Source: Sporomusaceae bacterium
GTDB taxonomy: Bacteria; Bacillota; Negativicutes; UBA1444
Assembly (NCBI GenBank): GCA_018434355.1
Contig: JAHDPL010000003.1
Location: 1-64,000, forward strand
Length of the DNA: 64,000 nucleotides
Direction: 5' to 3'
Within the stretch, counting starts at the first letter, position 1. Each line of letters begins with the position of its first letter. The notes below the pieces were generated by a model, which saw only the letters and a program-made list of their open reading frames with translations, searched no databases and was not told the origin of the DNA. Position numbers and translations under genes: made by a program. This document shows, one piece after another, positions 299 through 18,065 of the stretch.

Positions 299-1213
299 AT
301 GCTTGACGTTCAACTGCAAATTTTCAAGACGGTAGTCGAGAAAAAAAGTTTTTCGCTTGCCGCACAAGAACTGCACATGACACAATCGTCGGTAAGTCAA
401 CATATTCAAGCGTTGGAAATTTATTTTGGCGCCAAGCTGTTCGACAGGTTGCATCGGCGCATCTGTCTGACCGAAGCCGGCAGCGCTCTGTATCCTTATG
501 CTGTTAGTCTGGAAAGGCTTTATCAGGAAGCAAGGGATACCATGTCGGGGCAACTGGACCTGGTGGCCGGACGGCTCTCGATTGCCGCGAGCATGACCAT
601 CGGTGAATATCTATTGCCGAAGATATTGGTTCAGTTTAATCAACTATATCCTAAGGTAAATATTACTATGGATATTGTAAATACGGAGCGGGTGATCGGT
701 AAAACGGTCGAAGGCAATGCGGATATCGGATTTGTCGAAGGAGTATATAAGCCTGTATCCGACTTGGAAGGCGAATGTTTTTGCGGCGATGATTTGGTAA
801 TTATCAAATCGGCTTCTTATCAGAGCTGCAATACCGCGACCGAGGCGCCGGTTTCAATCGCCACTTTATTGGAAGAGCGCTGGGTGTTGCGTGAGACGGA
901 TTCGGGAACGCGACGGGTTTTTGAAAATTTTCTGGTTCGGCATGATTACTCGCCGGCAGCGCTCAATGTAATCATGAGTTTTAGCAGTACTGAAGCAATA
1001 AAAAGTGCGGTGATGACCGGCGCAGGGCTTGGAATCATGTCGCGTCTGGCGGTGACTGAAGAAATAAAACGCGGTGAAGTCAGAGTTGTTCAGCTTTGTG
1101 AAGGCACGATCGATCGCAGCTTCTGGATACTGCGAAACAAGGCGAAATTTCAGACCAAGACTGTTAATCGGTTCTGCGCATTCTTTTTGAGTCAGATGAA
1201 CGGCCAGGATTAA
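299..1213 (+). CDS. LysR-family transcriptional regulator (CysL/YeiE-like)
   Basis: A 304-aa LysR-type regulator of normal family length. The N-terminal winged helix-turn-helix (residues about 1-60) carries the typical FSLAAQELHMTQSSVSQHI recognition segment. The rest is a periplasmic-binding-protein-like effector domain (about 90-295). It is co-oriented with the dsr genes and separated from the ferredoxin by about 215 bp holding a perfect hairpin, so it is the obvious candidate regulator of the island. The overall sequence recalls the CysL/YeiE branch. In Enterobacteria YeiE is linked to yeiH and has been tied to sulfite sensing, and a YeiH homologue lies downstream here. The effector is inferred, not shown. 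The ATG at 299 has only a weak upstream GAGGA, spaced rather far. Confidence 0.88.
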   Translation: MLDVQLQIFKTVVEKKSFSLAAQELHMTQSSVSQHIQALEIYFGAKLFDRLHRRICLTEAGSALYPYAVSLERLYQEARDTMSGQLDLVAGRLSIAASMTIGEYLLPKILVQFNQLYPKVNITMDIVNTERVIGKTVEGNADIGFVEGVYKPVSDLEGECFCGDDLVIIKSASYQSCNTATEAPVSIATLLEERWVLRETDSGTRRVFENFLVRHDYSPAALNVIMSFSSTEAIKSAVMTGAGLGIMSRLAVTEEIKRGEVRVVQLCEGTIDRSFWILRNKAKFQTKTVNRFCAFFLSQMNGQD

Positions 1214-1653: not shown

Positions 1654-2856
1654 ATGGATGTTGAGAAAAAAGTAGCTGCAACTCCACTACTGGATGAACT
1701 GGAAAAAGGCGATTGGCCCAGTTTTGTCACGGAAATCAAGAAAGCCGCGAAAACTAGCAAAATGGCGCAAGGTTTGTTGGAACAAGTTGAGGCATCTTAT
1801 GTGGAAAAAACCGGCCACTGGAAACATGGCGGGATTGTAGGCGTCAAAGGGTACGGCGGCGGCGTAGTCGGTCGTTATACAGATGATCCCGATCGTTTCC
1901 CTGATGCGCGCGAATTTCACACCATGCGGGTAAACCAGGTCCCCGGCTTTTTCTACACCAGCGAAAAGCTGCGCGCCCTGGCCGATATCTGGGACAAGTA
2001 TGGCAGCGGACTGTATAACATGCATGGCTCCACCGGTGATATTATTTTGCTTGGCACCACGACAGAAAACCTGCAACCTTGCTTTGACGCACTGGGCGAA
2101 ATCGATTTCGACCTCGGCGGTTCCGGCGGCGCCCTGCGTACGCTAAGCTGCTGCTGCGGCGAAGCGCGCTGCGAAAAATCCTGTATCGATGCGATGGATA
2201 TGATGTATGACCTCACGATGTACTACCAGAATGAGATGCATCGTCCGGCTTGGCCCTATAAATTTAAAATCAAGATTTCCGGTTGCCCCAACGATTGCGC
2301 AGCTGCCTCAGCCCGCTCCGATATGGCGCTGATCGGTACCTGGCGCGATGCAATCCAAGTAAATCAGGAAGAAGTCCGCAAGTATGTGGCCGACGGCATG
2401 AATATGGTTCAAGTCTGCCGCAAATGTCCGACCGAAGCCCTCGGCTGGGATGAAAAAAATCAGACTTTGTCGATTAAAACCGAAGACTGTGTGCGTTGCA
2501 TGCACTGTATCAATGTGATGCCGAAAGCCCTCAGAATTGGCAAAGAACGTGGGATTACCGTACAGATCGGCGGCAAGGCGCCTGTTGTCAAAGGCGCGAT
2601 GATCGGCTGGATTCTGGTTCCGTTTATGAAGGCAGAGGCGCCTTATACTGAAATCAAGGACTTGGTAAGCCGGATTACTGAATTCTGGGCTGAGCACGGC
2701 AAGAATCGCGAAAGACTCGGCGAATTAGTCGAAAGACTTAGTTTGGCAACATTCCTTGAAGGTGTCGGACTGAAGCCATTACCCCAGATGGTCAGTGCGC
2801 CGCGTGCAAATCCCTATATCTTCTGGAAGGAAGAGGAGGTCGTGAAAAATGGCTAG
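1654..2856 (+). CDS. dsrA: Dissimilatory sulfite reductase alpha subunit DsrA
   Basis: A 400-aa alpha subunit of the cytoplasmic DsrAB reductase, which reduces sulfite and, with DsrC, leaves a DsrC trisulfide. The siroheme/[4Fe-4S] ligand cysteines are visible as a Cys-rich segment at residues 166-177 (C168, C173, C177 included) and CPNDC at 211-215. The inserted ferredoxin domain has C258 followed by CVRCMHC at 279-285. The C-terminal region matches DsrA, with WAEHGKNRERLGE near 345-357. A GGAAAGGCAGGGAAGG region precedes the ATG. The stop overlaps the dsrB start by 8 nt, so translation is probably coupled. Absence of dsrEFH favours the reductive type. Confidence 0.97.
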   Translation: MDVEKKVAATPLLDELEKGDWPSFVTEIKKAAKTSKMAQGLLEQVEASYVEKTGHWKHGGIVGVKGYGGGVVGRYTDDPDRFPDAREFHTMRVNQVPGFFYTSEKLRALADIWDKYGSGLYNMHGSTGDIILLGTTTENLQPCFDALGEIDFDLGGSGGALRTLSCCCGEARCEKSCIDAMDMMYDLTMYYQNEMHRPAWPYKFKIKISGCPNDCAAASARSDMALIGTWRDAIQVNQEEVRKYVADGMNMVQVCRKCPTEALGWDEKNQTLSIKTEDCVRCMHCINVMPKALRIGKERGITVQIGGKAPVVKGAMIGWILVPFMKAEAPYTEIKDLVSRITEFWAEHGKNRERLGELVERLSLATFLEGVGLKPLPQMVSAPRANPYIFWKEEEVVKNG

Positions 2857-3910
2857 AACAGATTTCGGCCCGCCCGACTATAAAACCATGTTGCCGCCGG
2901 TCATCAAACGTAATTACGGCAAGTGGCTGTATCATGAAGTTCCTCAACCCGGCGTGTTGCGCCATGTAAGCGAAACCGGCGAAGAACTCTACTCGGTTCG
3001 TGTTGCTTCGGCCCGTTTGGTCAGCAGTGAATTCATCCGCGACATTTCTGATATTGCCGAGAAATATTGCGATGGTTTCCTGCGTTTCACTACCCGTAAC
3101 AATGTAGAATTCCTGGTTTCTGACAAGGCGAAGCTCGAACCGTTGCTGAAAGAACTGGACGAAAAAGATTATCTGGTGGGAGGCGTCGGCCTATCCATCA
3201 GCAACATCGTGCATACACAGGGCTGGATTCACTGCAAGAGCGCCGTTACTGACGCTTCCGGCCTGACCAAGAACATCATGGATACGATGGTGGATTATTT
3301 TACCGGCAAGAAGTCGGTGCCGTCCCGCTGCCGTATTGCCGTGGCTTGCTGCGTTAACATGTGCGGCGCTTGCCACTGTTCCGACATCGCAGTAGTCGGT
3401 ATTCATCGGACGATTCCGCGGATCAACCATGAATTGGCTTCAAAGATCTGCGAAATCCCCAACACGATCGCTTCCTGCCCGACCGGTGCGATCCGGCCGA
3501 ATCCGAAACTCAAGAGCGTCGAAATCAATCATGAAAAGTGCATGATGTGCGGTAACTGTACCGTCGTCTGTCCGGCCATCAAGATCATGGATCCCGAGAA
3601 TGACGGCGTATCGATCTGGGTCGGCGGCAAAGTATCCAACGCACGATCGAAGCCGATGTTCTCAAGACTGGCGATTCCGTTCATTCCCAATAACCCGCCG
3701 TTCTGGCCGGAAGTCACTGATGCAGTGAAACATCTGGTCGAAGTTTGGGCCAGCAATGCGCGCCCGGGCGAACGCATGGGCGAGTGGATTGGGCGAATCG
3801 GTTGGGAGCGGTTCTTTGCAATTGCGGACCTGCCGTTCACTGATAAGCATTTGGATGATTTTACCCATGCCAATACAACCTTCCGGTCCACAACACAGTT
3901 CAAATATTAA
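2849..3910 (+). CDS. dsrB: Dissimilatory sulfite reductase beta subunit DsrB
   Basis: A 353-aa beta subunit that pairs with DsrA in the alpha2beta2 enzyme and carries the catalytic siroheme. Siroheme-cluster cysteines are visible at C129 (WIHCK), CC at 167-168 and C172, followed by GACHCSDIA. The ferredoxin domain has C210 and CMMCGNC at 231-237, then CP at 241. The start at 2849 sits inside the dsrA end and has a GGAGG site about 10 bp upstream (AAGAGGAGGTCG). Only 44 bp separate it from dsrC, so the usual dsrD gene is not present in its common place. Confidence 0.97.
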   Translation: MARTDFGPPDYKTMLPPVIKRNYGKWLYHEVPQPGVLRHVSETGEELYSVRVASARLVSSEFIRDISDIAEKYCDGFLRFTTRNNVEFLVSDKAKLEPLLKELDEKDYLVGGVGLSISNIVHTQGWIHCKSAVTDASGLTKNIMDTMVDYFTGKKSVPSRCRIAVACCVNMCGACHCSDIAVVGIHRTIPRINHELASKICEIPNTIASCPTGAIRPNPKLKSVEINHEKCMMCGNCTVVCPAIKIMDPENDGVSIWVGGKVSNARSKPMFSRLAIPFIPNNPPFWPEVTDAVKHLVEVWASNARPGERMGEWIGRIGWERFFAIADLPFTDKHLDDFTHANTTFRSTTQFKY

Positions 3911-3954
3911 ATCCTGGCGCGATGCGCTAATGATAAACGAGAGGAGATGAGGGT

Positions 3955-4272
3955 ATGTCATTTGTCGAAATCAAAGGGCAACAAATCGAATTGGATGAGG
4001 ACGGGTTCATCGTTGAGCCTGATTTGTGGAGCACTGACATCGCCGAGTATTTCGCGAAAGAGGAAGAAGTCGAAGAGCTGACCGAGCAGCACTGGAAAAT
4101 CATCAATTATCTGAAGGACTATTTCAAGCAGTTCGGAATCGCGCCGATGGTCCGCAAAGTATGCAAAGACAATAATGTGAGTATGCAGGAACTGTACGCA
4201 TTGTTCCCGACAGGCCCGGCAAAAGGCGCCTGTAAGATCGCCGGCTTGCCAAAACCGACCGGCTGCGTGTAA
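3955..4272 (+). CDS. dsrC: DsrC, sulfur-carrier co-substrate of DsrAB
   Basis: A 105-aa DsrC/TusE family protein. Both functional cysteines are present: CysB at residue 93 (KGACK) and CysA at 104 in the flexible C-terminal arm ending PTGCV. Having both is the mark of true DsrC able to form the trisulfide; proteins lacking CysB belong to other branches. The central helix-turn-helix-like region fits the family. A good AGGAGATGAGGG site precedes the ATG. Its trisulfide is expected to be reduced by the DsrK-containing membrane complexes encoded downstream. The next gene starts only 3 nt after the stop codon. Confidence 0.97.
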   Translation: MSFVEIKGQQIELDEDGFIVEPDLWSTDIAEYFAKEEEVEELTEQHWKIINYLKDYFKQFGIAPMVRKVCKDNNVSMQELYALFPTGPAKGACKIAGLPKPTGCV

Positions 4273-4275
4273 CCA

Positions 4276-5328
4276 GTGAAAACCCGGACCTGGCTCGGGC
4301 AAATCGCAAACGGGATTCGTGGGCTGACGCAAACGACGCCGCGTGTGTTTGCCCTCCAGGTCGGATTGACTACGACGTGCCAAAGCAGGTGCTTCTATTG
4401 TCCGCGCACTGCCTTGCGAGGTAGCTGGACCGACAGCATGCTGTCGTGGGACGTATACGAAAAATCACTTGCTCCGGCATTTGGCTGCTTCAAGATGATC
4501 TTCCTGCAAGGCTGGGGCGAACCGCTGCTCCATCCGCGTTTTTGGGATATGGCGGCACTGGCGAAGCGCTCCGGCGCTCAGGTCGGTTTTCGCACCAATG
4601 CGTTGCTATTTCACGAATCTGCTATTGAACGGACCCTGGACATGGAGCTGGATTTTATCTCGTTTACTTTGACCGGCGCTTCTGCGGCAACGCACCTGCA
4701 CCATCGCTCAGGAACGGATTTCGATCTGGTGTGTCAACGGGTCCGTCAGTTGCGTGAAAGAAGAAAGAACGGCCACCAATCTCCGTATATCAGTCTAAAT
4801 TACACATTGATGCGAAGTAATCTTGCGGAGTTGCCGGCTGCAGTGAAATTGGCCGCCGAAATCGGCGCCGACCAGCTCTGTGTCGAACACATGGATTGCA
4901 TTCCTGTTCGTCAATTGGAACAACAGGTGGTGTTTTTGAACCCGCAGGAAACGGATGACGCCATTGTAGCTGACGCGCGGCGAATTGCCGAGGAACGCTC
5001 AATACTCTTCTCCTGCGAACCGGTTGTCGTTTCGTCCGATCCGCGCACCTGCAGTGCAGACCCGTTGCGCGGAACGCTATATGTGACAGCGGACGCTCGC
5101 ATAGTGCCTTGTCATCAAATGGCGCTGCCGCCGGACTCCGTAGAACACTTTTGGTTTCACGGGAATCCTTCGCTCGGCGAACCCGTTGTTTTGGGGCGAG
5201 CCGATCAGCAGTCGCTGCTGGAAATATTGCGAAGCGAACATACCAGGCAGTTGCTGCGCGCCTTTACAAAACCAGAACCGGAATACCCGCTGCTTTGCCG
5301 GAATTGCTATAAATTGTACGGGGTATAA
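4276..5328 (+). CDS. Radical SAM protein linked to dsrC
   Basis: A 350-aa radical SAM enzyme. The cluster motif CxxxCxxC is visible as CQSRCFYC at residues 35-42, followed by a GWGEPLLHP segment typical of the SAM-binding GGE-like motif. Extra cysteines toward the C terminus (CSAD, VPCHQ, LCRNC) suggest a SPASM-like region holding an auxiliary cluster. It starts with GTG 3 nt after the dsrC stop, without an obvious separate ribosome site, so it is probably translated by coupling with dsrC. Its substrate is unknown. Position suggests a role around DsrC or the sulfite reductase, for example peptide or cofactor modification, but nothing in the sequence proves this. Confidence 0.85.
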   Translation: MKTRTWLGQIANGIRGLTQTTPRVFALQVGLTTTCQSRCFYCPRTALRGSWTDSMLSWDVYEKSLAPAFGCFKMIFLQGWGEPLLHPRFWDMAALAKRSGAQVGFRTNALLFHESAIERTLDMELDFISFTLTGASAATHLHHRSGTDFDLVCQRVRQLRERRKNGHQSPYISLNYTLMRSNLAELPAAVKLAAEIGADQLCVEHMDCIPVRQLEQQVVFLNPQETDDAIVADARRIAEERSILFSCEPVVVSSDPRTCSADPLRGTLYVTADARIVPCHQMALPPDSVEHFWFHGNPSLGEPVVLGRADQQSLLEILRSEHTRQLLRAFTKPEPEYPLLCRNCYKLYGV

Positions 5329-5330
5329 AA

Positions 5331-5942
5331 ATGGAGCCAAAGGAAAAACAGGAAATCGTTGCCCGTCATGAGCGGCGATTTGCCGGTGAATTGACGGAGG
5401 CGGTACTGGAAAAGCCCGAATTGTCCGTCTGGATGATTCTGATTCCATTCCTGTTCATTGTTTTTATGCAACGTCAGCAGAAATTCAAGCAGTTGGGAGA
5501 TACCTTTCAGCGGGGCTTTATGTACACAAAGAACCATGCGCTCGAAGCCGCCGCACGACTCGTTGCAGGAGCATCCGCGCAAACCGTCGAAGAAGAATTA
5601 GCCCAAAAGGTCCGAAAGAATCCAGATGCCGACGCTCCGCTACAGCAGATATATCAGGCTCAGCTAAATGAAATCACTCTGCTGACGGAACACTATCGGC
5701 GGTTGTTGTCAACACAGGCCGCTGATTATGCTGTTATGGTTAGGGAGGCTTACCGGCCCGACGAATTCCAGCAATTCTTGGTTGAACTGGCACAAAGGGA
5801 GCATCTCGTAAATGAAGCCGCCGCTTCCTTGAATTCTGCGCCAGACATGACGTGGCGAGACGTTATCAAGAGGCTGGAAGAAGAGACCATCCTTCGCAGA
5901 AAAAAAGAAGCGGATCAAATCTTTTCCTGCAATCGCGAGTAA
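5331..5942 (+). CDS. One-TM protein of unknown function in the dsr operon
   Basis: A 203-aa protein I do not recognise with certainty. One hydrophobic segment is seen at about residues 31-47. The rest is hydrophilic, glutamine- and glutamate-rich and predicted largely helical, ending with a charged segment near the C terminus. The start is 3 nt after the radical SAM stop codon, so it is very likely in the same operon. It may be a membrane-anchored partner of that enzyme or of the transporter that follows. No enzyme motif, heme site or metal motif is visible. Confidence 0.75.
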   Translation: MEPKEKQEIVARHERRFAGELTEAVLEKPELSVWMILIPFLFIVFMQRQQKFKQLGDTFQRGFMYTKNHALEAAARLVAGASAQTVEEELAQKVRKNPDADAPLQQIYQAQLNEITLLTEHYRRLLSTQAADYAVMVREAYRPDEFQQFLVELAQREHLVNEAAASLNSAPDMTWRDVIKRLEEETILRRKKEADQIFSCNRE

Positions 5943-5999
5943 AGTCTACCGCCAGGTCTGAATGAACGGACAGAATTTTCGAGGAGGTGTATTCAACCT

Positions 6000-7754
6000 A
6001 TGACAACCAATGGAAATTCGCCAGCAAAGAAAGACTACTCTTATCTGTGGAAACACGAGGATTACTGGGCAATTTGGATGGGCTTAACAATTCTTATCAT
6101 CGGTCTCTTTGTCTTCTTTTCTTCCACTCCGGCCAATATGGACGCAACCATTGCCAAACATAATGCGGTCATGGCCGAAGAAGCCAAGAAAGCGCCGTTC
6201 AAGACGCTGGAATGGTATCAGGCCAGCGATGCCAAAAGCAGCCTGAGCGTTTCAAGCATTCCCCTCATCAAATCTTTCAATGCATATGCCAGTAGGCCCA
6301 AGGGCTGGTCAGACAACCCGATGGCTTCCTTTTACCTGAGCGAGGCCGATGCGAAAGCTAAGAGCGCTGCGGCGGCCGGTCGCTATGATACGGCCAAGAA
6401 AGCCACAGTAGCGGCGCTGGCTGATGCCAAGACGGCGCAAGCCGCTGCAGCGACAGCTCAATTCAAAGATGCCGCGCTGAACAAATCTGCCAGCGACAAG
6501 GTCGAAAACTGGCGAAAAGCCCGCACCGCCGAATCGCGCGCCAAAGGTGCGGCAGAGACCAAACCGTACAACTTGATTCCCGGCATGATCGTGATGATTA
6601 TCGGCTTGGGGTTGTTCTTCTCAGTAGGAATGTACGTTATGGGCAAATCGGTTTCCCAGTTTATGATGGGATTCCCGGTCGTCTTCCTGCTGGCGGCGTT
6701 GTCGTATTTCCTGGCTGCTAACAGCAGCCTGCGGGCATGGGGTCTCGAATATGTGCTGTGGGCGATTCTGCTCGGCTTCCTGATCAGTAACACGATCGGC
6801 ACGCCGAAATGGATCATGGCAGCGGCGCAGACCGAGTATTACATCAAGACCGGTCTGGTGTTGCTGGGATCTTCGATCCTGATGGGCAAAATGCTGTTGA
6901 TCGGCATTCCCGGTATTGTCGTAACCTGGGTGGTTACGCCGATTGTTCTGATTGGTACTTACTGGTTCGGCCAGAATGTCGTTAAGATGGAATCGAAAGA
7001 ACTGAACATCACGGTTTCGGCCGACATGTCTGTTAGCGGCGTGTCTGCCGCGATTGCCGCCGCGGCTGCCTGCCGGGCCAAGAAAGAAGAACTGACATTG
7101 TCTGTTGGCATTTCGATTCTGTTTACGGCGATCATGATGGTCGTCATGCCGATGGCAATCAAGGCGATGGGCATGCATCCTGTACTGGGCGGCGCCTGGA
7201 TCGGCGGCACGGTCGACTCCACCGGCGCGGTGGTCGCAGCCGGCGAAATGCTCGGACCGGTAGCCCGCGACGTGGCGGCCACGATCAAAATGATCCAGAA
7301 CATCCTGATCGGTGTTATGGCGTTCTGTATTGCTGCTTACTGGTGTCTCCGCGTCGATACCTCCCGGGCCTGTGAAGCCGACCTTAGCTTCGGCGGAGCA
7401 ATCCGACAGATCTGGGACCGGTTCCCGAAATTCGTGCTTGGTTTTATCGGCGCTTCGGTCATCTTTTCGCTGATTCATGCCAACATGCAGCCGGATGCGG
7501 CACGTATCGTGATTGACAACGGGATTATCCGAGGTTTTGTCGCACACTTGCAGGCTTGGTTCTTTGCGTTGGCCTTCGTCAGCATCGGCCTGTCCACAGA
7601 CTTCCGTGAGCTCGGCAAGTATTTCAAAGGCGGCAAGCCGGTGATTCTGTATGTCTGCGGCCAGTCGTTCAACCTGGTGCTTACGTTGGCAGTCGCTTAT
7701 CTGATGTTCTTTATCGTGTTCCCCGAAATTACAGCCAAACTGATGGGGAAATAG
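6000..7754 (+). CDS. YeiH-family (putative sulfate exporter) transporter with N-terminal insert
   Basis: A 584-aa membrane protein. The C-terminal part (about 190-580) is a multi-TM YeiH/UPF0324 domain, the family annotated as putative sulfate exporters; features include the glycine-rich VLGGAWIGGTVDSTGAVVAAG stretch near residue 400. The N-terminal part is an added module: one TM at about 25-43 and an alanine-rich, helical extracytoplasmic segment at about 45-185. A GAGGAGG site precedes the ATG. Its place between dsrC and the membrane-complex genes suggests movement of sulfite, sulfate or another sulfur anion. The substrate and direction are not known from sequence. Confidence 0.88.
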   Translation: MTTNGNSPAKKDYSYLWKHEDYWAIWMGLTILIIGLFVFFSSTPANMDATIAKHNAVMAEEAKKAPFKTLEWYQASDAKSSLSVSSIPLIKSFNAYASRPKGWSDNPMASFYLSEADAKAKSAAAAGRYDTAKKATVAALADAKTAQAAAATAQFKDAALNKSASDKVENWRKARTAESRAKGAAETKPYNLIPGMIVMIIGLGLFFSVGMYVMGKSVSQFMMGFPVVFLLAALSYFLAANSSLRAWGLEYVLWAILLGFLISNTIGTPKWIMAAAQTEYYIKTGLVLLGSSILMGKMLLIGIPGIVVTWVVTPIVLIGTYWFGQNVVKMESKELNITVSADMSVSGVSAAIAAAAACRAKKEELTLSVGISILFTAIMMVVMPMAIKAMGMHPVLGGAWIGGTVDSTGAVVAAGEMLGPVARDVAATIKMIQNILIGVMAFCIAAYWCLRVDTSRACEADLSFGGAIRQIWDRFPKFVLGFIGASVIFSLIHANMQPDAARIVIDNGIIRGFVAHLQAWFFALAFVSIGLSTDFRELGKYFKGGKPVILYVCGQSFNLVLTLAVAYLMFFIVFPEITAKLMGK

Positions 7755-7760
7755 CAGATC

Positions 7761-8036
7761 ATGCAATCAGTCAAGATTCCGCATGGCCTTTACTTCGGAA
7801 TGCCGAACCGCACCCGCCAATGGCTGGCGCTGTTCGCCGGACTGTTGGTGATTGGGGTTGTGGCGTTTGTAATACTGCCGGCCTTATCGGATGCACTGGG
7901 TTTTCGGGAAGCTCATAATCTGATAATCGAGGAAAATATCGAAGCAGGCGCCTGGTATTACATCTTTGTTGACAAAATCAAGGACATAGAACCTGCATTC
8001 AGAGATACGATGAATCATACGCCGCGTAATTTCTGA
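7761..8036 (+). CDS. Small membrane protein, unknown
   Basis: A 91-aa protein with one clear TM segment at about residues 20-42 and a short polar C-terminal domain. It starts 6 nt after the transporter stop codon, so it is probably translated with it and may be a small subunit. I do not recognise the family. The ribosome site is weak (GGGAAA), which fits coupling. Confidence 0.65.
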   Translation: MQSVKIPHGLYFGMPNRTRQWLALFAGLLVIGVVAFVILPALSDALGFREAHNLIIEENIEAGAWYYIFVDKIKDIEPAFRDTMNHTPRNF

Positions 8037-8080
8037 TGTTCAAACGCTAACACGATTTCTTAACCGAACCTTACACAATA

Positions 8081-8141
8081 ACGGCAGGGAATTTGTCGTG
8101 CCGGCCGTCATCAAGGTCAGTACAACTTGCTTCCCTGCCGT
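8081..8141 (+). promoter_or_regulatory. Long-loop hairpin in the leader of the DsrM-like gene
   Basis: ACGGCAGGGAA (8081-8091) is an exact reverse complement of TTCCCTGCCGT (8131-8141), with a 39-nt loop that contains GTGCCGGCCG. It lies between the small membrane protein and the DsrM-like gene, 27 bp before its start. No T-run follows, so an RNA-processing or stability element separating the two halves of the operon is more likely than a terminator. Confidence 0.55.
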
Positions 8142-8168
8142 TGGATTTTCAAAATCAAGAGGTGGATT

Positions 8169-9119
8169 ATGAACGCATTCGGTTGGTTTGTCGGTGGTCC
8201 ATATCTATATTTATGTGCAGTGCTGTTTATCGGGGTCACGGCGTGCAAGGTTTACGGTTATGCCACAATGCCCCGTCACCTGCGCTGGGATTTGTATCCG
8301 CTGCCGCATAGGGTCGGCGGTTCAAAATATCAACAGATCGATTTCCATAAGACTAAGCAAAAAACCAGCTTGTGGAATGAATTCACCTATATGTTCATGG
8401 AGATTTTATTCATTCGCAAAGCGTTCATCCATAATCCCAAAGTGTGGGTCGGTTCGTTTCCGATGCATCTGGGACTTTATCTGGCAATCCTGCTGCTTAT
8501 GCTGCTGCTACTGGGCGCTGGCGTGGAAAAACTGCTGGGATTGCCTGTGGTGCCGATCAATGATTGGTTCTGGGTCTCTGCGTTGTACTACAGCACGGCC
8601 ATAGTTGGCGCGCTGGCGATGATCTGCGGCGTCTGCGGCGCCTGTTGGCTATTGTACTTGCGTCTCAGCGATGAAGGGCTGCGCGATATGTCGGACATCC
8701 CGGCCTATGCCAATCTGACGCTGCTTATCGCGATGTTCGGTTCGGGACTGGCAGCCTGGTTTTTTGCTGACCGCGACTTTTCGATGCTGCGGTCGCAACT
8801 CGGCTCGTTGGTTGCTTTTTCACCGACGGCTCCCGGCCACTGGCTGATTACGCTGGAAATCTTTTTCATCGGGCTATTCCTTGCTTATCTGCCGTTTAGC
8901 CGGATGAGCCACTATGCCGCGAAGTATTTCTTTTATCACAACATCATGTGGGATGACGAGCCGATGAAGGCCGGCAGCTCGCTTGAAAAGGACGTAACAC
9001 ATTCGCTGGGCGGCAACTTGTCATGGTCGGCGCCCCATATCAAGCAAAATCAGTCCTGGCTGGCGCAGGTTTCGCCCGATGAAGCCAAGGCGGCAAAGGA
9101 AGGGGCGGCAAAACAATGA
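8169..9119 (+). CDS. DsrM/HmeC-like cytochrome b membrane subunit (first copy)
   Basis: A 316-aa membrane protein of the NarI/DsrM/HmeC/TmcC cytochrome b group, with about five TM segments and conserved histidines (for example PMHLG near 102 and SRMSHYAAKYFFYH near 250) that could bind heme b. It differs from the canonical DsrM encoded at 15149, mainly by the MPRHLRWDLYPLPH segment near residue 40, which recalls HmeC/TmcC. The ATG at 8169 has an AAGAGGTGG site; longer upstream frames lack one. It overlaps the next gene by 4 nt. It likely passes quinol electrons to the following iron-sulfur subunit. Confidence 0.88.
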   Translation: MNAFGWFVGGPYLYLCAVLFIGVTACKVYGYATMPRHLRWDLYPLPHRVGGSKYQQIDFHKTKQKTSLWNEFTYMFMEILFIRKAFIHNPKVWVGSFPMHLGLYLAILLLMLLLLGAGVEKLLGLPVVPINDWFWVSALYYSTAIVGALAMICGVCGACWLLYLRLSDEGLRDMSDIPAYANLTLLIAMFGSGLAAWFFADRDFSMLRSQLGSLVAFSPTAPGHWLITLEIFFIGLFLAYLPFSRMSHYAAKYFFYHNIMWDDEPMKAGSSLEKDVTHSLGGNLSWSAPHIKQNQSWLAQVSPDEAKAAKEGAAKQ

Positions 9120-10720
9120 AGAAAAAAGTGTTGATTCGTGATTTTGGTCAGGAAACTCCAGTGCTTTGCCCGATCGATTCTTCCGATATCCCGCTGTTGC
9201 CGGGAGAGGAACAGATCGTGTTCAAAGATGTGAAGCCGGCGATGAAAGAGAAATATGATTTTTCGCTGGACGGCTTTTCGGCGCTGAATCTGCCGATTCC
9301 CCAGACGCCGGAGGAAGAGGCGAAGATCGTCAACGATTTTCTGCGGGGATTGGAAAAAGTGTTCAGTGAGGAGAATAACTGGGCCTTCCTGCAACCGACG
9401 GTGTTGTCGACCGATTACTGCGTGCAATGCAATACTTGCAATGAGGCCTGTCCGGTCTATCCGGAAAGCGGTTACCAGGACATTTATCGGCCGAATTACC
9501 GTGCGGAACTGCTCAGACGCATCTATCGGCGGTATTTCACAACAGCGGGTAAATTGCTCGGCAAATGGGCCGGCGCAGACCTGGAACTGAACTGGCGTGT
9601 TGTCTACCGGCTGGCGGAACTGGTCTATCGCTGCAGCCTCTGTCGTCGCTGCGCCCAGACCTGCCCGGTGGGGGTCGACAATGCCTTGATCGCGCGTGAG
9701 GTCCGCAAGCTGTTCAGTCAAGAGATGGGAATTGCACCGGAAGGGGTCCACAAGTCCGGCACAGTCAACCATCTCAAATCCGGTTCGTCGACCGGGATGG
9801 GCAGCGCGGCGTTTTTGGACACACTGGAGATGGTGGAAGATATCATTGAAGAAAAAATCGGCCGACGAATCAAGATTCCGGTCGATGTACCGGGCGCTGA
9901 TTTCTTGCTTTTGCACAATGCCGGCGAATTCCTCGCCTGGCCGGAAAATCCGGCCGCATTCGCTATTCTGTTTGACGCTGCCGGGATCAGCTGGACATTG
10001 TCGTCGGAAATGATGGGCTATGAAGGGGTCAACTACGGAGTATGGTATGATGATGTGCAGTTCGCCAAAATCCTGGTTGGACAGGTACAGGCGGCAAAAC
10101 GGCTCGGCGTAGGCAAGATCGTCGTGGGGGAATGTGGCCACGCCACTAAGGCGACGGTGACGATCGGCGACCGGATCTGTGTCGGCGACCTGGCGATTCC
10201 CCGTGAGAGTTGCCTGCCGATATTGGCTGACATCGTCACCAGCGGAAAAATCAAATTCAATCCGCAGCAAAACAATTTTCCGGTCACCATGCACGACCCG
10301 TGCAATATGGTCCGTTTGATGGGAATTGAGAAGCCGCAATGGACGATTCTGAACGCCGTCGTGCCACAAAACCAGATTTATCCGATGCCGAATGCCGGTT
10401 CAGAGAACTATTGCTGCGGCGGCGGCAGTGGTTTCGCGATCATGAATTCACAGAACTTCCCGCAATGGCGCAACAATCTGTCAAGCCGTCGCAAAGCGCG
10501 GCAGGTCCTGGAAGCGTTCAAGGACGTGCTCGATCCGTCGATCGCCAAATATTATTGCGCTCCCTGTTCCAATTGCAAGGGATCGGCCCGCGATTCAATG
10601 ATCGAGGCATTCCACTTCAAGGATAAATACAATATGACCTACGGAGGGCTCGTCGAGCTGATGGTAAACGCCATGCCCGGTCTGCCGCAGCCCTACATTT
10701 CCTGGGAAGATGAATTCTAA
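9116..10720 (+). CDS. DsrK/HmeD-like heterodisulfide-reductase-type Fe-S subunit (first copy)
   Basis: A 534-aa HdrD/DsrK-type protein. Two 4Fe-4S sites are visible at C102/C105/C108/C112 and C173/C176/C179/C183. Two CCG-type motifs follow: HDPCN with YCCGGGSGF, and a second cysteine set CAPCSNC near the C terminus. In this family the CCG cluster handles disulfide or trisulfide substrates. It pairs with the cytochrome b gene it overlaps. It is clearly different from the canonical DsrK at 11189, for example in its N-terminal 90 residues. The two genes together resemble the two-subunit DsrMK of Gram-positive sulfate reducers or the HmeCD/TmcBC part of other complexes. Confidence 0.9.
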   Translation: MKKKVLIRDFGQETPVLCPIDSSDIPLLPGEEQIVFKDVKPAMKEKYDFSLDGFSALNLPIPQTPEEEAKIVNDFLRGLEKVFSEENNWAFLQPTVLSTDYCVQCNTCNEACPVYPESGYQDIYRPNYRAELLRRIYRRYFTTAGKLLGKWAGADLELNWRVVYRLAELVYRCSLCRRCAQTCPVGVDNALIAREVRKLFSQEMGIAPEGVHKSGTVNHLKSGSSTGMGSAAFLDTLEMVEDIIEEKIGRRIKIPVDVPGADFLLLHNAGEFLAWPENPAAFAILFDAAGISWTLSSEMMGYEGVNYGVWYDDVQFAKILVGQVQAAKRLGVGKIVVGECGHATKATVTIGDRICVGDLAIPRESCLPILADIVTSGKIKFNPQQNNFPVTMHDPCNMVRLMGIEKPQWTILNAVVPQNQIYPMPNAGSENYCCGGGSGFAIMNSQNFPQWRNNLSSRRKARQVLEAFKDVLDPSIAKYYCAPCSNCKGSARDSMIEAFHFKDKYNMTYGGLVELMVNAMPGLPQPYISWEDEF

Positions 10721-11189
10721 AGCACGGACGGCTTTGTTAAAAGCCTGGTATGATGCTACGCTGAAAAGCTATTTTCCCGACAGCGACGAAACCTTTCGCC
10801 GCAATACCGGTTTTGCCAATCCGGTAGGTCAGGCGTTTCAGGAATCTATGGCGAAGATTCTTGACGGATTGATGGACAAAGCAGCGCCTTCCGAATTTGT
10901 CGCGCCACTTGATCGGGTCATTCGGGTTTTAGCGGTGCAGGGGCTGCCGGCCGGCGTGGCGATTAGATTTTTGTTTGTGTTGCGTGATTTGCTGGAAAAA
11001 AACGTCGATCTGCCGGCAAGTGACAAGAAAATCTGGCAGCGGCAGCTGGACGCGCTGGCTGAGCAGTCAGTGGAAATCTGGTGTGAATGCCGTGAGACAT
11101 TGGCACAGCTTCGGATCAACGAACTGAGAAATCGCATTCAGCAATTGGAAGCCTGTTCAGTAGCCAAAGAAAGAGGAGGGACCTCCTGA
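10710..11189 (+). CDS. RsbRD N-terminal-domain protein
   Basis: A 159-aa soluble helical protein that matches the RsbRD N-terminal-type domain, with a W-x-TLxxYFPDS-like opening and an F-NPVG motif near residues 30-35. Proteins of this type are found next to dsrMKJOP in sulfate reducers; their role there is unknown. The start overlaps the preceding gene by 11 nt and the stop overlaps the dsrK start by 1 nt, so it is tightly embedded in the operon. It lacks a STAS domain, so a classic stressosome function is not implied. A sensor or assembly role is speculation. Confidence 0.8.
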   Translation: MNSKARTALLKAWYDATLKSYFPDSDETFRRNTGFANPVGQAFQESMAKILDGLMDKAAPSEFVAPLDRVIRVLAVQGLPAGVAIRFLFVLRDLLEKNVDLPASDKKIWQRQLDALAEQSVEIWCECRETLAQLRINELRNRIQQLEACSVAKERGGTS

Positions 11190-12811
11190 TGGCCAAAATA
11201 GCCAAACCGGCGGAACTACTCAAAAACACCGGTTTTGACTCGGTTCCACAGACGCATTGGATGGATACGCCGGTGGATTTCCGGCCAGGAACCTGGCTGT
11301 TTCCCGGCAAGGCGGAGAGCCTGATTGCCGTCGACTTGCCGAACCCGCGCAAATGGTCGCCGGAGGATGCCGACTGGAAGCTGCCGCCCAATTGGAAAGA
11401 GATCATTTTGGATGGAATGCGGGAACGGCTGCAACGCTACCGTTCGTTCCGCGTGTTCATGGACAGTTGCGTGCGTTGCGGCGCTTGCGCCGATAAATGC
11501 CATTTTTACCTGGGGTCCGGCGACCCGCGCAACATGCCGGTTCTGCGGGCCGAACTGCTGCGATCCGTCTATCTGTATTACTTTACACCCACCGGTAAAA
11601 CGCTGGGGCGTTTCGCCGGCGCGCGCGAGTTGACGGAGGACGTGATCAAGGAATGGTTCTACTATTTCCACCAGTGCACCGAATGCCGTCGTTGCTCGGT
11701 GTTCTGCCCATACGGGATCGATACGGCCGAAATTACGATGATCGGTCGGGAGCTTCTGAACCTGATCGGCTGCAATATCGACTGGATTGTCACGCCGGTC
11801 GCCAATTGCTACATGAAGGGAAATCATTTGGGAATCCAGCCGCATGGGCTGGTCGATTCGATGGATTTCTTGGTGGAGAATATCCAGGATATCACCGGGA
11901 TCAAGATTGAACCGACCTTTAATCGCAAGGGAGCGGAGATTCTATATGTGCCGCCGTCCGGTGACATTTTCGCCGACCCCGGCACCTTTGCGTTGATGGG
12001 ACAGTTGATGCTGTTCCATGAAACCGGTATCGACTACACGCTGAGCACGTATGCTTCCGAAGGCGGAAATTTCGGTAGCTTCACCTCGATGGAGATGGCC
12101 AAGCGGCTGAATGCAAAAATTTACGCCGAAGCGAAGCGACTGGGCGTGAAATGGATCATTGGCGGCGAGTGCGGCCATATGTGGCGGGTGATCCACCAGT
12201 TCATGGATACGATGAACGGTCCTGGCGACTTCCTTGAAACACCGGTGAATCCGCTCACCGGAACCCGGTTTGAACACGCCAAAGCGACCGGCATGATTCA
12301 TGTTACCGAGTTTACCGCCGATTTGATCCATGAAGGGAAGATCAAGCTCGACCCTTCGCGCAACGACAATGTGAAAGTGACCTTCCACGACTCCTGCAAC
12401 CCGTCGAGGGCCATGGGCCTGCTCGAAGAGCCGCGCTACATCCTGAACAAGGTCTGCAACCACTTTTACGAGATGCCGGAAGAGACGATCCGCGAGAACA
12501 CGTTCTGCTGCGGTGGCGGCAGCGGACTGGGCGCCGACGAGAATATGGAGATGCGGATGCGCGGCGGTTTGCCGCGGGCCAATGCAGTGCGCTACGTGCA
12601 TGAGAAATTCGGCGTGAACATGCTGTCCTGCGTTTGCGCGATCGACCGGGCGACTCTGCCGCCCCTGATGCATTACTGGGTGCCGAAGGTCGCGGTATGC
12701 GGCGTGCATGAACTGGTCGGCAACGCACTGATTATGAAGGGCGAAATGAAACGGAAACAGAATCTTCGTTTTGAAGATTTGCCTGGTGTAGAGGAGGATG
12801 GCAATGAATAA
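11189..12811 (+). CDS. dsrK: DsrK, catalytic Fe-S subunit of the DsrMKJOP complex
   Basis: A 540-aa canonical DsrK. Two 4Fe-4S sites are visible at C94/C97/C100/C104 and C163/C166/C169/C173. The CCG region has HDSCNPSRAMG and FCCGGGSGLG, with a final cysteine segment CVCAIDRATLP. The N terminus (residues 1-90) and the GSGDPRNMPVLR stretch are typical of DsrK rather than HmeD. It is predicted to reduce the DsrC trisulfide on the cytoplasmic side. A GAGGAGGG site precedes the ATG. The stop overlaps the dsrJ start by 8 nt. Confidence 0.95.
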   Translation: MAKIAKPAELLKNTGFDSVPQTHWMDTPVDFRPGTWLFPGKAESLIAVDLPNPRKWSPEDADWKLPPNWKEIILDGMRERLQRYRSFRVFMDSCVRCGACADKCHFYLGSGDPRNMPVLRAELLRSVYLYYFTPTGKTLGRFAGARELTEDVIKEWFYYFHQCTECRRCSVFCPYGIDTAEITMIGRELLNLIGCNIDWIVTPVANCYMKGNHLGIQPHGLVDSMDFLVENIQDITGIKIEPTFNRKGAEILYVPPSGDIFADPGTFALMGQLMLFHETGIDYTLSTYASEGGNFGSFTSMEMAKRLNAKIYAEAKRLGVKWIIGGECGHMWRVIHQFMDTMNGPGDFLETPVNPLTGTRFEHAKATGMIHVTEFTADLIHEGKIKLDPSRNDNVKVTFHDSCNPSRAMGLLEEPRYILNKVCNHFYEMPEETIRENTFCCGGGSGLGADENMEMRMRGGLPRANAVRYVHEKFGVNMLSCVCAIDRATLPPLMHYWVPKVAVCGVHELVGNALIMKGEMKRKQNLRFEDLPGVEEDGNE

Positions 12812-16182: not shown

Positions 16183-16231
16183 TAGGTGCGCCGTCGATCG
16201 GAGGAGCATTTCCGCCTTGGCGGCGCACCTA
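16183..16231 (+). promoter_or_regulatory. Hairpin enclosing the ribosome site of ccsB
   Basis: TAGGTGCGCCG (16183-16193) and CGGCGCACCTA (16221-16231) are exact complements. The loop holds GGAGGAG (16200-16206), and a small inner pairing CGGA/TCCG could cover it. The last base of the stem is the first base of the proposed ATG. The arrangement suggests control of translation or an operator overlapping the start. Confidence 0.6.
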
Positions 16232-17235
16232 TGTTTTTGAACTTGTCAAACGAGACCACAAGAGAGGCTGGTGGCGCCGTGCGTGCTGCAATCCTGACAA
16301 TCTCACTGATTCTGGCGGCAGTTCTGTTTGGCGGACTGATCCCGCAGGGGCTAACGCCGGAAGCTTACTTGGATCGCTTCGGTGAATCTCCAGGCCGGAT
16401 TTTTTTGCTTTTGGGACTGGATGATATTTATCGCACCAAAGGGTTTTTGCTGCTGGGGGTGCTGTTGTTTGTCCAGTTGCTGGCGTGCACAGGCAAACGG
16501 ATTGCCTTGCTGCGCGGCAATAGCAAATTGTGGCTGGCAGGATCGGTGTTGTTGCATGTCGGCTTGCTGGTTTTCCTGATTTCAACCGCCGTAAGCCTTT
16601 GGTGGGGTAAAAGCCTGATGATCGAAGCGCCGGAAGGAAAGACGGTTGTACTGAGCCAAAAGGGACTGCCTTTTGACATCCGCCTGGAACGATTTTTGAT
16701 CGATTATTATCCTGGCAGCCAGTCAGTGCGACAGTACCGCAGCGAAGTGACTTTGCTGCAAGGAGAGCGGGAATTGCGGCGAGGCAGTCTGGAAGTCAAC
16801 TCTCCGCTGGGCTATGAAGGAACCAAGATTTTTCAGATGAGCTATGGTTGGCTGCTGGAAGGAACGATCAGGCAATTACCGGATGGCAAGGTTCAAACCT
16901 TTTCGATGGTCAATGGCGGCTGGCTTGCCGGCGGAAATGGCGCTGATCGACTGCGCGGAGTAATCATGGCTGATCCTGATAAGCATCCGAATTACAAGCC
17001 GGAGGTCGCCTTTTTGCTGCTAAGTGCAACCGGTGACCGGCAGGCGGCGGTTGTATCGCCTGGATCATCGGCAGTGATCGGAAACCAGGAAATCCAGCTG
17101 GGCCAGATTCGACGCTACTCAGGACTACAGTTGAAGCAGGACCCGGGGATTGCCGGAATCTTTGCCGGCTTGAGCTTGTCCCTGATCGGCCTGATGCTCC
17201 GTTATGCGCCGGTGGGAGGGAAAAAGAGCATATGA
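16231..17235 (+). CDS. ccsB: CcsB/ResB-family cytochrome c biogenesis protein
   Basis: A 334-aa ResB-like membrane protein of system II cytochrome c maturation. It has an N-terminal TM pair, the HVGLLVFLISTAVSLWWG helix near residue 110, a large extracytoplasmic domain and a final TM. It works with CcsA to attach heme to CxxCH cytochromes such as DsrJ. The start is uncertain: ATG 16231 fits the family, but the only strong ribosome site lies 24 bp upstream in a hairpin, and GTG 16186 or GTG 16279 are possible. The stop overlaps ccsA by 4 nt. Confidence 0.88.
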   Translation: MFLNLSNETTREAGGAVRAAILTISLILAAVLFGGLIPQGLTPEAYLDRFGESPGRIFLLLGLDDIYRTKGFLLLGVLLFVQLLACTGKRIALLRGNSKLWLAGSVLLHVGLLVFLISTAVSLWWGKSLMIEAPEGKTVVLSQKGLPFDIRLERFLIDYYPGSQSVRQYRSEVTLLQGERELRRGSLEVNSPLGYEGTKIFQMSYGWLLEGTIRQLPDGKVQTFSMVNGGWLAGGNGADRLRGVIMADPDKHPNYKPEVAFLLLSATGDRQAAVVSPGSSAVIGNQEIQLGQIRRYSGLQLKQDPGIAGIFAGLSLSLIGLMLRYAPVGGKKSI

Positions 17236-18065
17236 TTCAGTGGGAAACGATCCTGCTATTGCTGGTTTTTGTTGTATATGTGGGAGCGACGATCAGTTTC
17301 TCGCTCAGATACTGGATGAAAAGCAACCGCTTGATTGCTGCGGGGCTACTACTGACAGGCGCGGCGTTTTCTCTGCACAGCGGCTTGCTGCTGGTGCGCG
17401 GTCTGGCGGCAGGACGGCTGCCGTTCAGCAATCTGTATGAATTCACTTTGGTGTTTGGCTGGGTGACATTGCTGCTGTTTGTTGGCTGCGCCATTCGGTT
17501 TCGTTTACTCGCCACAGCGCCGCTGGCCTTGTCACTGGTAACTTTGCTGATCGGGGTTGCGGCAATGATGCCGCGAGATATCAGGCCGCTTATGCCGGCC
17601 CTGCGCAGCGGCTGGCTACAGTCGCATGTCGCGTCAGGCATCTTGGCCTATGGAGCGTTGGCAGTGTCCGCGGTGTTGGCGGTCGTGATGCTGACCCGTA
17701 GCGAGGACAAAGAGACAGGCTTGGAATCGGACTGGGCTGCTCGCTATTGGAAAATGCCGGCTGCGATCGAGCTGGAACGCTATGTTCATGGATTGATCGT
17801 GTTTGGGTTTTTCTTTTTGTCGGTACTGATGGTAACCGGCGCGGTATGGGCGGAGGAGACATGGGGCCGCTGGTGGGGATGGGACCCCAAAGAAATTTGG
17901 GCTCTGATCACTTGGATGATATATCTGGTCTATTTGCATGGGCGCAGCCGGTTTGGCTGGCGTGGACAGGCGACAGCCTGGTTCTCGGCCATTGGGTTTT
18001 TGGCGGTGATGTTTACCTTGTTCGGCGTTACCTACCTGTTGCCTGGTTTGCATAGTTATAAGTAA
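17232..18065 (+). CDS. ccsA: CcsA/ResC-family heme-handling cytochrome c synthase subunit
   Basis: A 277-aa membrane protein with about eight TM segments and the tryptophan-rich WWD heme-handling motif (WGRWWGWDPKEIW, residues 211-223). Conserved histidines lie around it (H132, H186, H236). It delivers and ligates heme to apocytochromes on the outer face of the membrane. It is the last gene of the dsr island and is followed at once by a strong terminator, so the whole cytochrome-making capacity is co-located with DsrJ. Confidence 0.95.
   Translation: MIQWETILLLLVFVVYVGATISFSLRYWMKSNRLIAAGLLLTGAAFSLHSGLLLVRGLAAGRLPFSNLYEFTLVFGWVTLLLFVGCAIRFRLLATAPLALSLVTLLIGVAAMMPRDIRPLMPALRSGWLQSHVASGILAYGALAVSAVLAVVMLTRSEDKETGLESDWAARYWKMPAAIELERYVHGLIVFGFFFLSVLMVTGAVWAEETWGRWWGWDPKEIWALITWMIYLVYLHGRSRFGWRGQATAWFSAIGFLAVMFTLFGVTYLLPGLHSYK

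Follow-up and report, generated by a model that had tools for sequence, protein, structure and literature searches.

A long-form YeiH-family transporter in a Sporomusaceae dsr operon as a candidate sulfite carrier of Dsr- and Asr-containing bacteria

In a 64,000-nucleotide stretch of a Sporomusaceae genome (GenBank assembly GCA_018434355.1, contig JAHDPL010000003.1, positions 1 to 64,000; here called the window), four genes are inserted in the dsr operon downstream of dsrC, and they encode a radical SAM protein, an all-helical protein, a transporter, and a 91-amino-acid protein with a single transmembrane (TM) helix. Sulfite is the substrate of DsrAB, and the locus raises the question of what such a block does beside a sulfite reductase. 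An earlier note on the same DNA had suggested that the block modifies DsrC or a small peptide and moves a sulfur anion. The analysis favors the second half of this suggestion, with a probability of about 0.58 that the block has at its core a secondary carrier of sulfite (or bisulfite, or perhaps a related oxyanion) serving a cytoplasmic dissimilatory sulfite reductase. YeiH-N denotes here the long-form YeiH/PSE-family transporter with its N-terminal extension, and HY denotes the helical protein of family NF038143 ("HYxxLL").

The transporter pair and its association with sulfite reductases

YeiH-N exceeds the gathering score of PF03601 and is thereby a member of that family (PSE; TC 2.A.98), and its score of 62.6 bits against the YeiH subfamily model TIGR00698 falls far below the cut-off of 232.6. 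A transporter alignment scanned against 84,980 species genomes gave 411 relatives, and the locus counts below refer to the best 80 of them. The 91-amino-acid protein had no family match in the family scans, and its conserved part is the motif IEAGAxFYTxVE, which follows the TM helix. A homolog of this protein lies directly downstream of the transporter gene on the same strand in 77 of the 80 loci, with a median gap of 15 bp. The transporter and the small TM protein form a conserved pair, which is the core of the block.

Carriage of YeiH-N is strongly associated with sulfite reductases at the genome level. The dsrA gene is present in 42 of 50 genomes that carry YeiH-N (over the cut-off in 41), and among the other eight, Cetobacterium and Clostridium saudiense encode AsrC over the cut-off, three genomes encode AprA over the cut-off, and one encodes a partial AprA. 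In a sample of 198 genomes from the phylum of Desulfacinum (100 with and 98 without dsrA), the center of which was picked as a YeiH-N carrier, YeiH-N was found in 12 of the dsrA-positive genomes versus none of the dsrA-negative genomes (p = 2e-4, or 4e-4 without the center genome). For 398 Bacillota genomes (55 with and 343 without dsrA), the EDYWAIW leader was used as a marker for YeiH-type proteins. Proteins of this type, most of which are shorter YeiH proteins of ~440 to 500 amino acids without the full extra domain, occur in 43/55 dsrA-positive versus 10/343 dsrA-negative genomes (p = 6e-37), and in 15 Bacillota genomes they are no farther than 13.1 kb from dsrA, where about 1 would be expected. 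The families co-occur far more often than chance would give. The earlier note had named scattering of the families independently of dsr as grounds for abandoning the idea. Such scattering is seen physically in the Desulfobacterota loci, but it does not hold at the genome level. A block specific to the dsr operon was rejected as a description of the family, since most relatives are placed elsewhere in the genome.

Operon links in other lineages point in the same direction. In Cetobacterium, which has no dsr genes, the genes for the transporter, the TM protein, and a shorter HY come directly after asrA, asrB, and asrC (each over its NCBIfam cut-off). In the YeiH-N tree, the asr-linked Cetobacterium group falls, together with C. 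saudiense, within the 10-row clade of the window transporter (support, 99), which also holds Desulfosporosinus and other Clostridia. In an Omnitrophota genome, qmoC lies directly upstream of the pair and DsrM-like and DsrK-like genes lie downstream, and in a Melioribacteraceae locus, a DsrM-like gene follows the pair (L028 and L087 are the loci that represent these two lineages). The common theme of these links is sulfite, the product of AprAB (Qmo) and the substrate of Dsr or Asr.

The closest described unit is DVU0542-0545 of Desulfovibrio vulgaris, which comprises a PSE transporter and a 133-amino-acid one-TM protein, is regulated by DVU0539, and has a role that was called unclear (PMC10102598). 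DVU0543 and DVU0544 show the same order, transporter and then small one-TM protein, as window positions 6000 to 8036 and 77 of the 80 loci. The likeness is one of architecture, and the nearest named stand-in in the data is Desulfovibrio sp. A2 (locus L094). The regulators of the unit are DVU0539/0540, and related sets are DVU0943-0946 and DVU2133-2132. A sigma54 response regulator and a histidine kinase stand alongside the D. vulgaris unit, and genes of these kinds, the kinase with a Tll0287-like sensor, flank the pair in many Desulfobacterota loci here (e.g., L071, L050, and L094). Unlike the window block, the D. vulgaris unit lies outside the dsr operon between universal stress proteins, and no HY or radical SAM gene has been reported in it. 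New here are the strong association with sulfite reductases, the link to an asr operon, and HY as a partner.

In the AF2 model of YeiH-N (pLDDT, 86.8), TM1 spans residues ~20 to 40, a helical domain spans residues 47 to 185, and the core spans residues 217 to 582. The core finds its best structural matches in NhaP/NapA antiporters, PIN8, and SbtA, all of them elevator-type or ion-coupled carriers, and its alignment with NhaP1 (Z, 13.9; 273 residues; rmsd, 4.0) indicates an elevator/antiporter-like fold. Foldseek with the transporter gave no match at an E value of ≤0.001, and no sequence relatives of it were found in the PDB. By charge distribution and hydropathy, both the extra domain of the transporter and the tail of the 91-amino-acid protein are predicted to lie outside the membrane, and because of this shared predicted location, they could contact each other.

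Substrate and direction of transport

The window genome (3.9 Mb, listed as 100% complete) contains dsrABC and dsrMKJOP-type genes, a search for sat gave no match in it, and no aprA over the cut-off was found (best, 92 bits versus 642). Because of this gene content, the host probably respires sulfite or a sulfite precursor and not sulfate. Sulfite resistance in Salmonella is driven mainly by yeiH, which is under the control of YeiE, a LysR protein that binds sulfite (PMC12880088). Together with the association with Dsr, Asr, and Qmo genes, this phenotype supports the movement of a sulfur anion by the block. The window protein has the PF03601 core in common with YeiH of Salmonella and Escherichia coli, and a LysR gene, possibly of the YeiE type, stands upstream of the window dsr operon; unlike in the YeiH-YeiE system, however, the window transporter has an additional domain and a TM partner encoded separately, and the LysR gene is not adjacent to it. 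In phmmer searches, YeiE was the best match of the LysR effector domain among the effector-only PDB entries (8sbh, 86.5 bits; 7erp, 77.5 bits), with CbnR close behind (5y2w, 71.7 bits), and the best full-length PDB match was another LysR protein (8sbf). We infer that this LysR protein regulates the dsr operon. Sulfite uptake by proton symport was reported in Desulfovibrio in 1987, according to the title of a work by Cypionka cited in PMC5840216, and a survey of the sulfate transporters encoded in genomes of sulfate reducers covers five families, with neither YeiH nor COG2855 found by a search of its text (PMC5840216).

The data accommodate both uptake and export. Uptake is slightly favored because the host lacks sat and aprA, and export is favored by the Salmonella phenotype. 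An export valve, with the unit acting as a stress system that releases surplus cytoplasmic sulfite and not as an importer for respiration, is a version of the sulfite carrier that differs in direction; the confidences of the two overlap, and the valve has somewhat less than an even chance. It is consistent with the sulfite sensitivity of Salmonella yeiH mutants (PMC12880088), with tiling data in which DVU0539-0545 are not expressed during regular growth of D. vulgaris (PMC3333781), and with the benefit of disrupting the transporter/one-TM pair under molybdate (PMC10102598), a condition that should limit sulfite formation; moreover, sulfite arises intracellularly in sulfate reducers. The window unit, however, lies within a dsr operon of a host with no match to sat and no aprA over the cut-off, and exporting an electron acceptor would be sensible only if sulfite is made inside the cell, e.g., from sulfonates.

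It is less probable, and on balance unlikely, that the carrier moves another anion, such as lactate, acetate, sulfate, molybdate, or a taurine-like compound, and that the link to sulfite reducers is ecological. Two PSE transporters of D. vulgaris are coregulated with lactate genes (PMC4641369; PMC3333781), and no substrate data exist for the PSE transporters of that species (PMC4641369). The asrABC-linked Cetobacterium unit and the qmoC-linked Omnitrophota unit, however, have sulfite metabolism and not lactate in common, sulfate as the sole substrate fits sulfite-only reducers poorly, and the genetic phenotype known for a distant family member, Salmonella YeiH, concerns sulfite.

Several observations weigh against a sulfite carrier. 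The functional evidence for it is associative throughout, and the genome samples are phylogenetically nonindependent, with the Bacillota association spanning 20 families. Since no long-form transporter is present in 88 of the 100 dsrA-positive genomes sampled from the phylum of Desulfacinum, YeiH-N is not required for sulfite reduction. Its distribution within the class is patchy, because none of 120 class-level relatives, including a 73%-complete congener, has the transporter. A Brocadiia genome (G433) and a Saprospiraceae genome (G443) carry the transporter and have no dsrA, aprA, or AsrC over the cut-off. The benefit of disruption under molybdate counts here as well, and lactate or another substrate is possible because DVU0539, the regulator of the look-alike pair, also binds lactate utilization genes in D. 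vulgaris (PMC3333781).

HY, the radical SAM gene, and DsrC

HY occurs within 10 kb of the transporter in 28 of the 80 loci, usually within 1.5 kb, and is a frequent third partner of the pair. The window HY is a member of NF038143 over the cut-off, and what is new for this family is its tie to a transporter and to sulfite reductases. In a scan of 299 Bacillota genomes, NF038143 was over the cut-off in 5, all 5 of which have dsrA. The AF2 model is all-helical (pLDDT, 94.1), and HY is probably a membrane-anchored helical bundle. Its conserved residues are E14, W34, P39, H121, Y122, Y141, E157, and R190, among which E14, H121, E157, and R190 point to a polar site with a function. The fold has no clear relative in the PDB (best Foldseek E value, 1.0; best VIA-align Z, 6.6, similar to unrelated helical bundles), and a literature search found no paper naming the HYxxLL motif.

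The radical SAM gene recurs as an optional neighbor and is an add-on to the unit, with homologs (phmmer E value of 1e-33 or better, plus one partial) in 8 of the 80 transporter loci, several of them from one clade. The four genes are adjacent in the window, as the earlier note described, but its single contiguous block dissolves elsewhere into ties of unequal strength, with 77, 28, and 8 of 80 loci carrying the one-TM protein, HY, and the radical SAM gene, respectively. The radical SAM protein has the CX3CX2C motif at C35/C39/C42 and four conserved C-terminal cysteines (C259, C279, C341, and C344), and it is below the cut-off for every named radical SAM equivalog. The nearest curated models, the putative maturases TIGR04317 (108 versus 380 bits) and TIGR04311 (112 versus 400 bits), have the radical SAM domain and a SPASM-like C terminus in common with it, but the window protein is not a member of either and has only four conserved C-terminal cysteines.

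Modification of DsrC or a small peptide by the radical SAM and membrane genes, followed by export or presentation of the product, is very improbable: the start of the radical SAM gene right behind dsrC and the maturase-like nearest models speak for it, but among the 55 dsrA-positive Bacillota the homologs are near dsr only in this window, members of the subfamily adjoin transporter or HY genes in genomes with no dsrC close to them, no precursor-like small open reading frame (ORF) was noted between the four genes, and the DsrC sequence is ordinary looking, including its two C-terminal cysteines. The dsrA-positive genomes G044, with two HY genes, and G300 have the transporter without a radical SAM homolog at an E value of ≤1e-15, and the DsrC half of the earlier proposal finds no support. 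A literature search found no paper joining "dsr operon," radical SAM, DsrC, and DsrMKJOP. HY is a better candidate partner of the radical SAM protein than DsrC, because the two are paired in a second Bacillota genome, where a radical SAM gene comes after two HY genes and no transporter gene adjoins them (L198, positions 7342 to 9792); yet an obligate pairing of HY and radical SAM is ruled out by G044.

Operon layout and a model of the unit

The ORFs and their spacing bear out the four genes and their positions (Table 1). The dsrC stop (4272) and the GTG start of the radical SAM gene (4276) are separated by 3 nucleotides; the radical SAM gene ends at 5328 and HY starts at 5331; HY ends at 5942 and the transporter ATG, preceded by AGGAGG, is at 6000; and the transporter ends at 7754, before the 91-amino-acid gene at 7761. 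The four ORFs are packed like one transcription unit that lies between dsrC and the DsrM/DsrK-like pair. The block does stand ahead of Dsr membrane genes, as the earlier note had it, but the genes directly after it are a second, divergent DsrM/DsrK-like pair, and the canonical DsrK is encoded farther downstream.

Table 1. Features of the dsr operon in the window
Feature	Position	Strand	Evidence
LysR-type regulator, upstream of dsr	299..1213	+	Pfam HTH_1, LysR_substrate
dsrA, dsrB, dsrC	1654..4272	+	dsrA 552 bits to TIGR02064; DsrC PF04358 131 bits
Radical SAM/SPASM-type protein	4276..5328	+	PF04055 42.9 bits; SPASM PF13186 28.9 bits
HY protein	5331..5942	+	NCBIfam NF038143 166.4 bits vs cut-off 50
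YeiH-N transporter	6000..7754	+	PF03601 138 bits vs gathering score 24.5
Extra helical domain of YeiH-N (residues 47-185)	6138..6554	+	APFKT, P..W..NP, LN..A motifs conserved
91-amino-acid one-TM partner (TM 21-39)	7761..8036	+	IEAGAxFYTxVE motif, predicted outer side
Divergent DsrM-like/DsrK-like pair	8169..10720	+	DsrK model 309 bits vs cut-off 400
Canonical DsrK, with JOP	11189-12811		727 bits

Two DsrK-type proteins are encoded in one operon. The divergent one (309 bits) follows the transporter pair, and the canonical one (727 bits) stands with JOP. An RsbRD_N-domain protein (window positions 10710 to 11189) adjoins the dsrMKJOP genes, as it does in L013, L158, L159, L161, L162, and L165, and these neighbors outside the window belong to several other Bacillota dsr clusters. 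Directly 3' of the dsr cluster, two proteins that by eye resemble ResB- and CcsA-type cytochrome c maturation proteins are encoded at positions 16186 to 18065. A second, divergent dsrAB-like pair (~28 to 35% identity) adjoins the main dsr genes in L013, L155-L157, L164, L166-L168, and L170, and a second dsrC-like gene often accompanies it in those loci. In a Fibrobacteria locus (L072, positions 2060 to 3429), siroheme genes (a CysG-type methyltransferase and a precorrin-2 dehydrogenase) adjoin the transporter/TM pair.

In a fuller model, which is tentative and falls short of even odds, YeiH-N and its one-TM partner, with HY, would form a dedicated sulfite carrier in Dsr and Asr respirers, and in some lineages a radical SAM enzyme would mature the adaptor. 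In the sulfite carrier favored above, YeiH-N would act as an elevator-type carrier with its extra domain outside the membrane, and the outer tail of the one-TM partner would probably dock on this domain as an obligate accessory subunit. HY may be a membrane-anchored helical adaptor with its conserved polar site, and the radical SAM enzyme an optional maturase, the best candidate substrate of which would be a member of the set such as HY. In a host without sat and aprA, ion-coupled uptake of sulfite would be the most useful direction, with export of the surplus nearly as likely.

Across phyla, the occurrence of this conserved transporter pair follows that of Dsr and Asr, which provides a concrete candidate gene for sulfite transport. 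If the sulfite carrier is confirmed, it would be one answer to the question of which membrane protein transports sulfite in bacteria that respire with Dsr or Asr.

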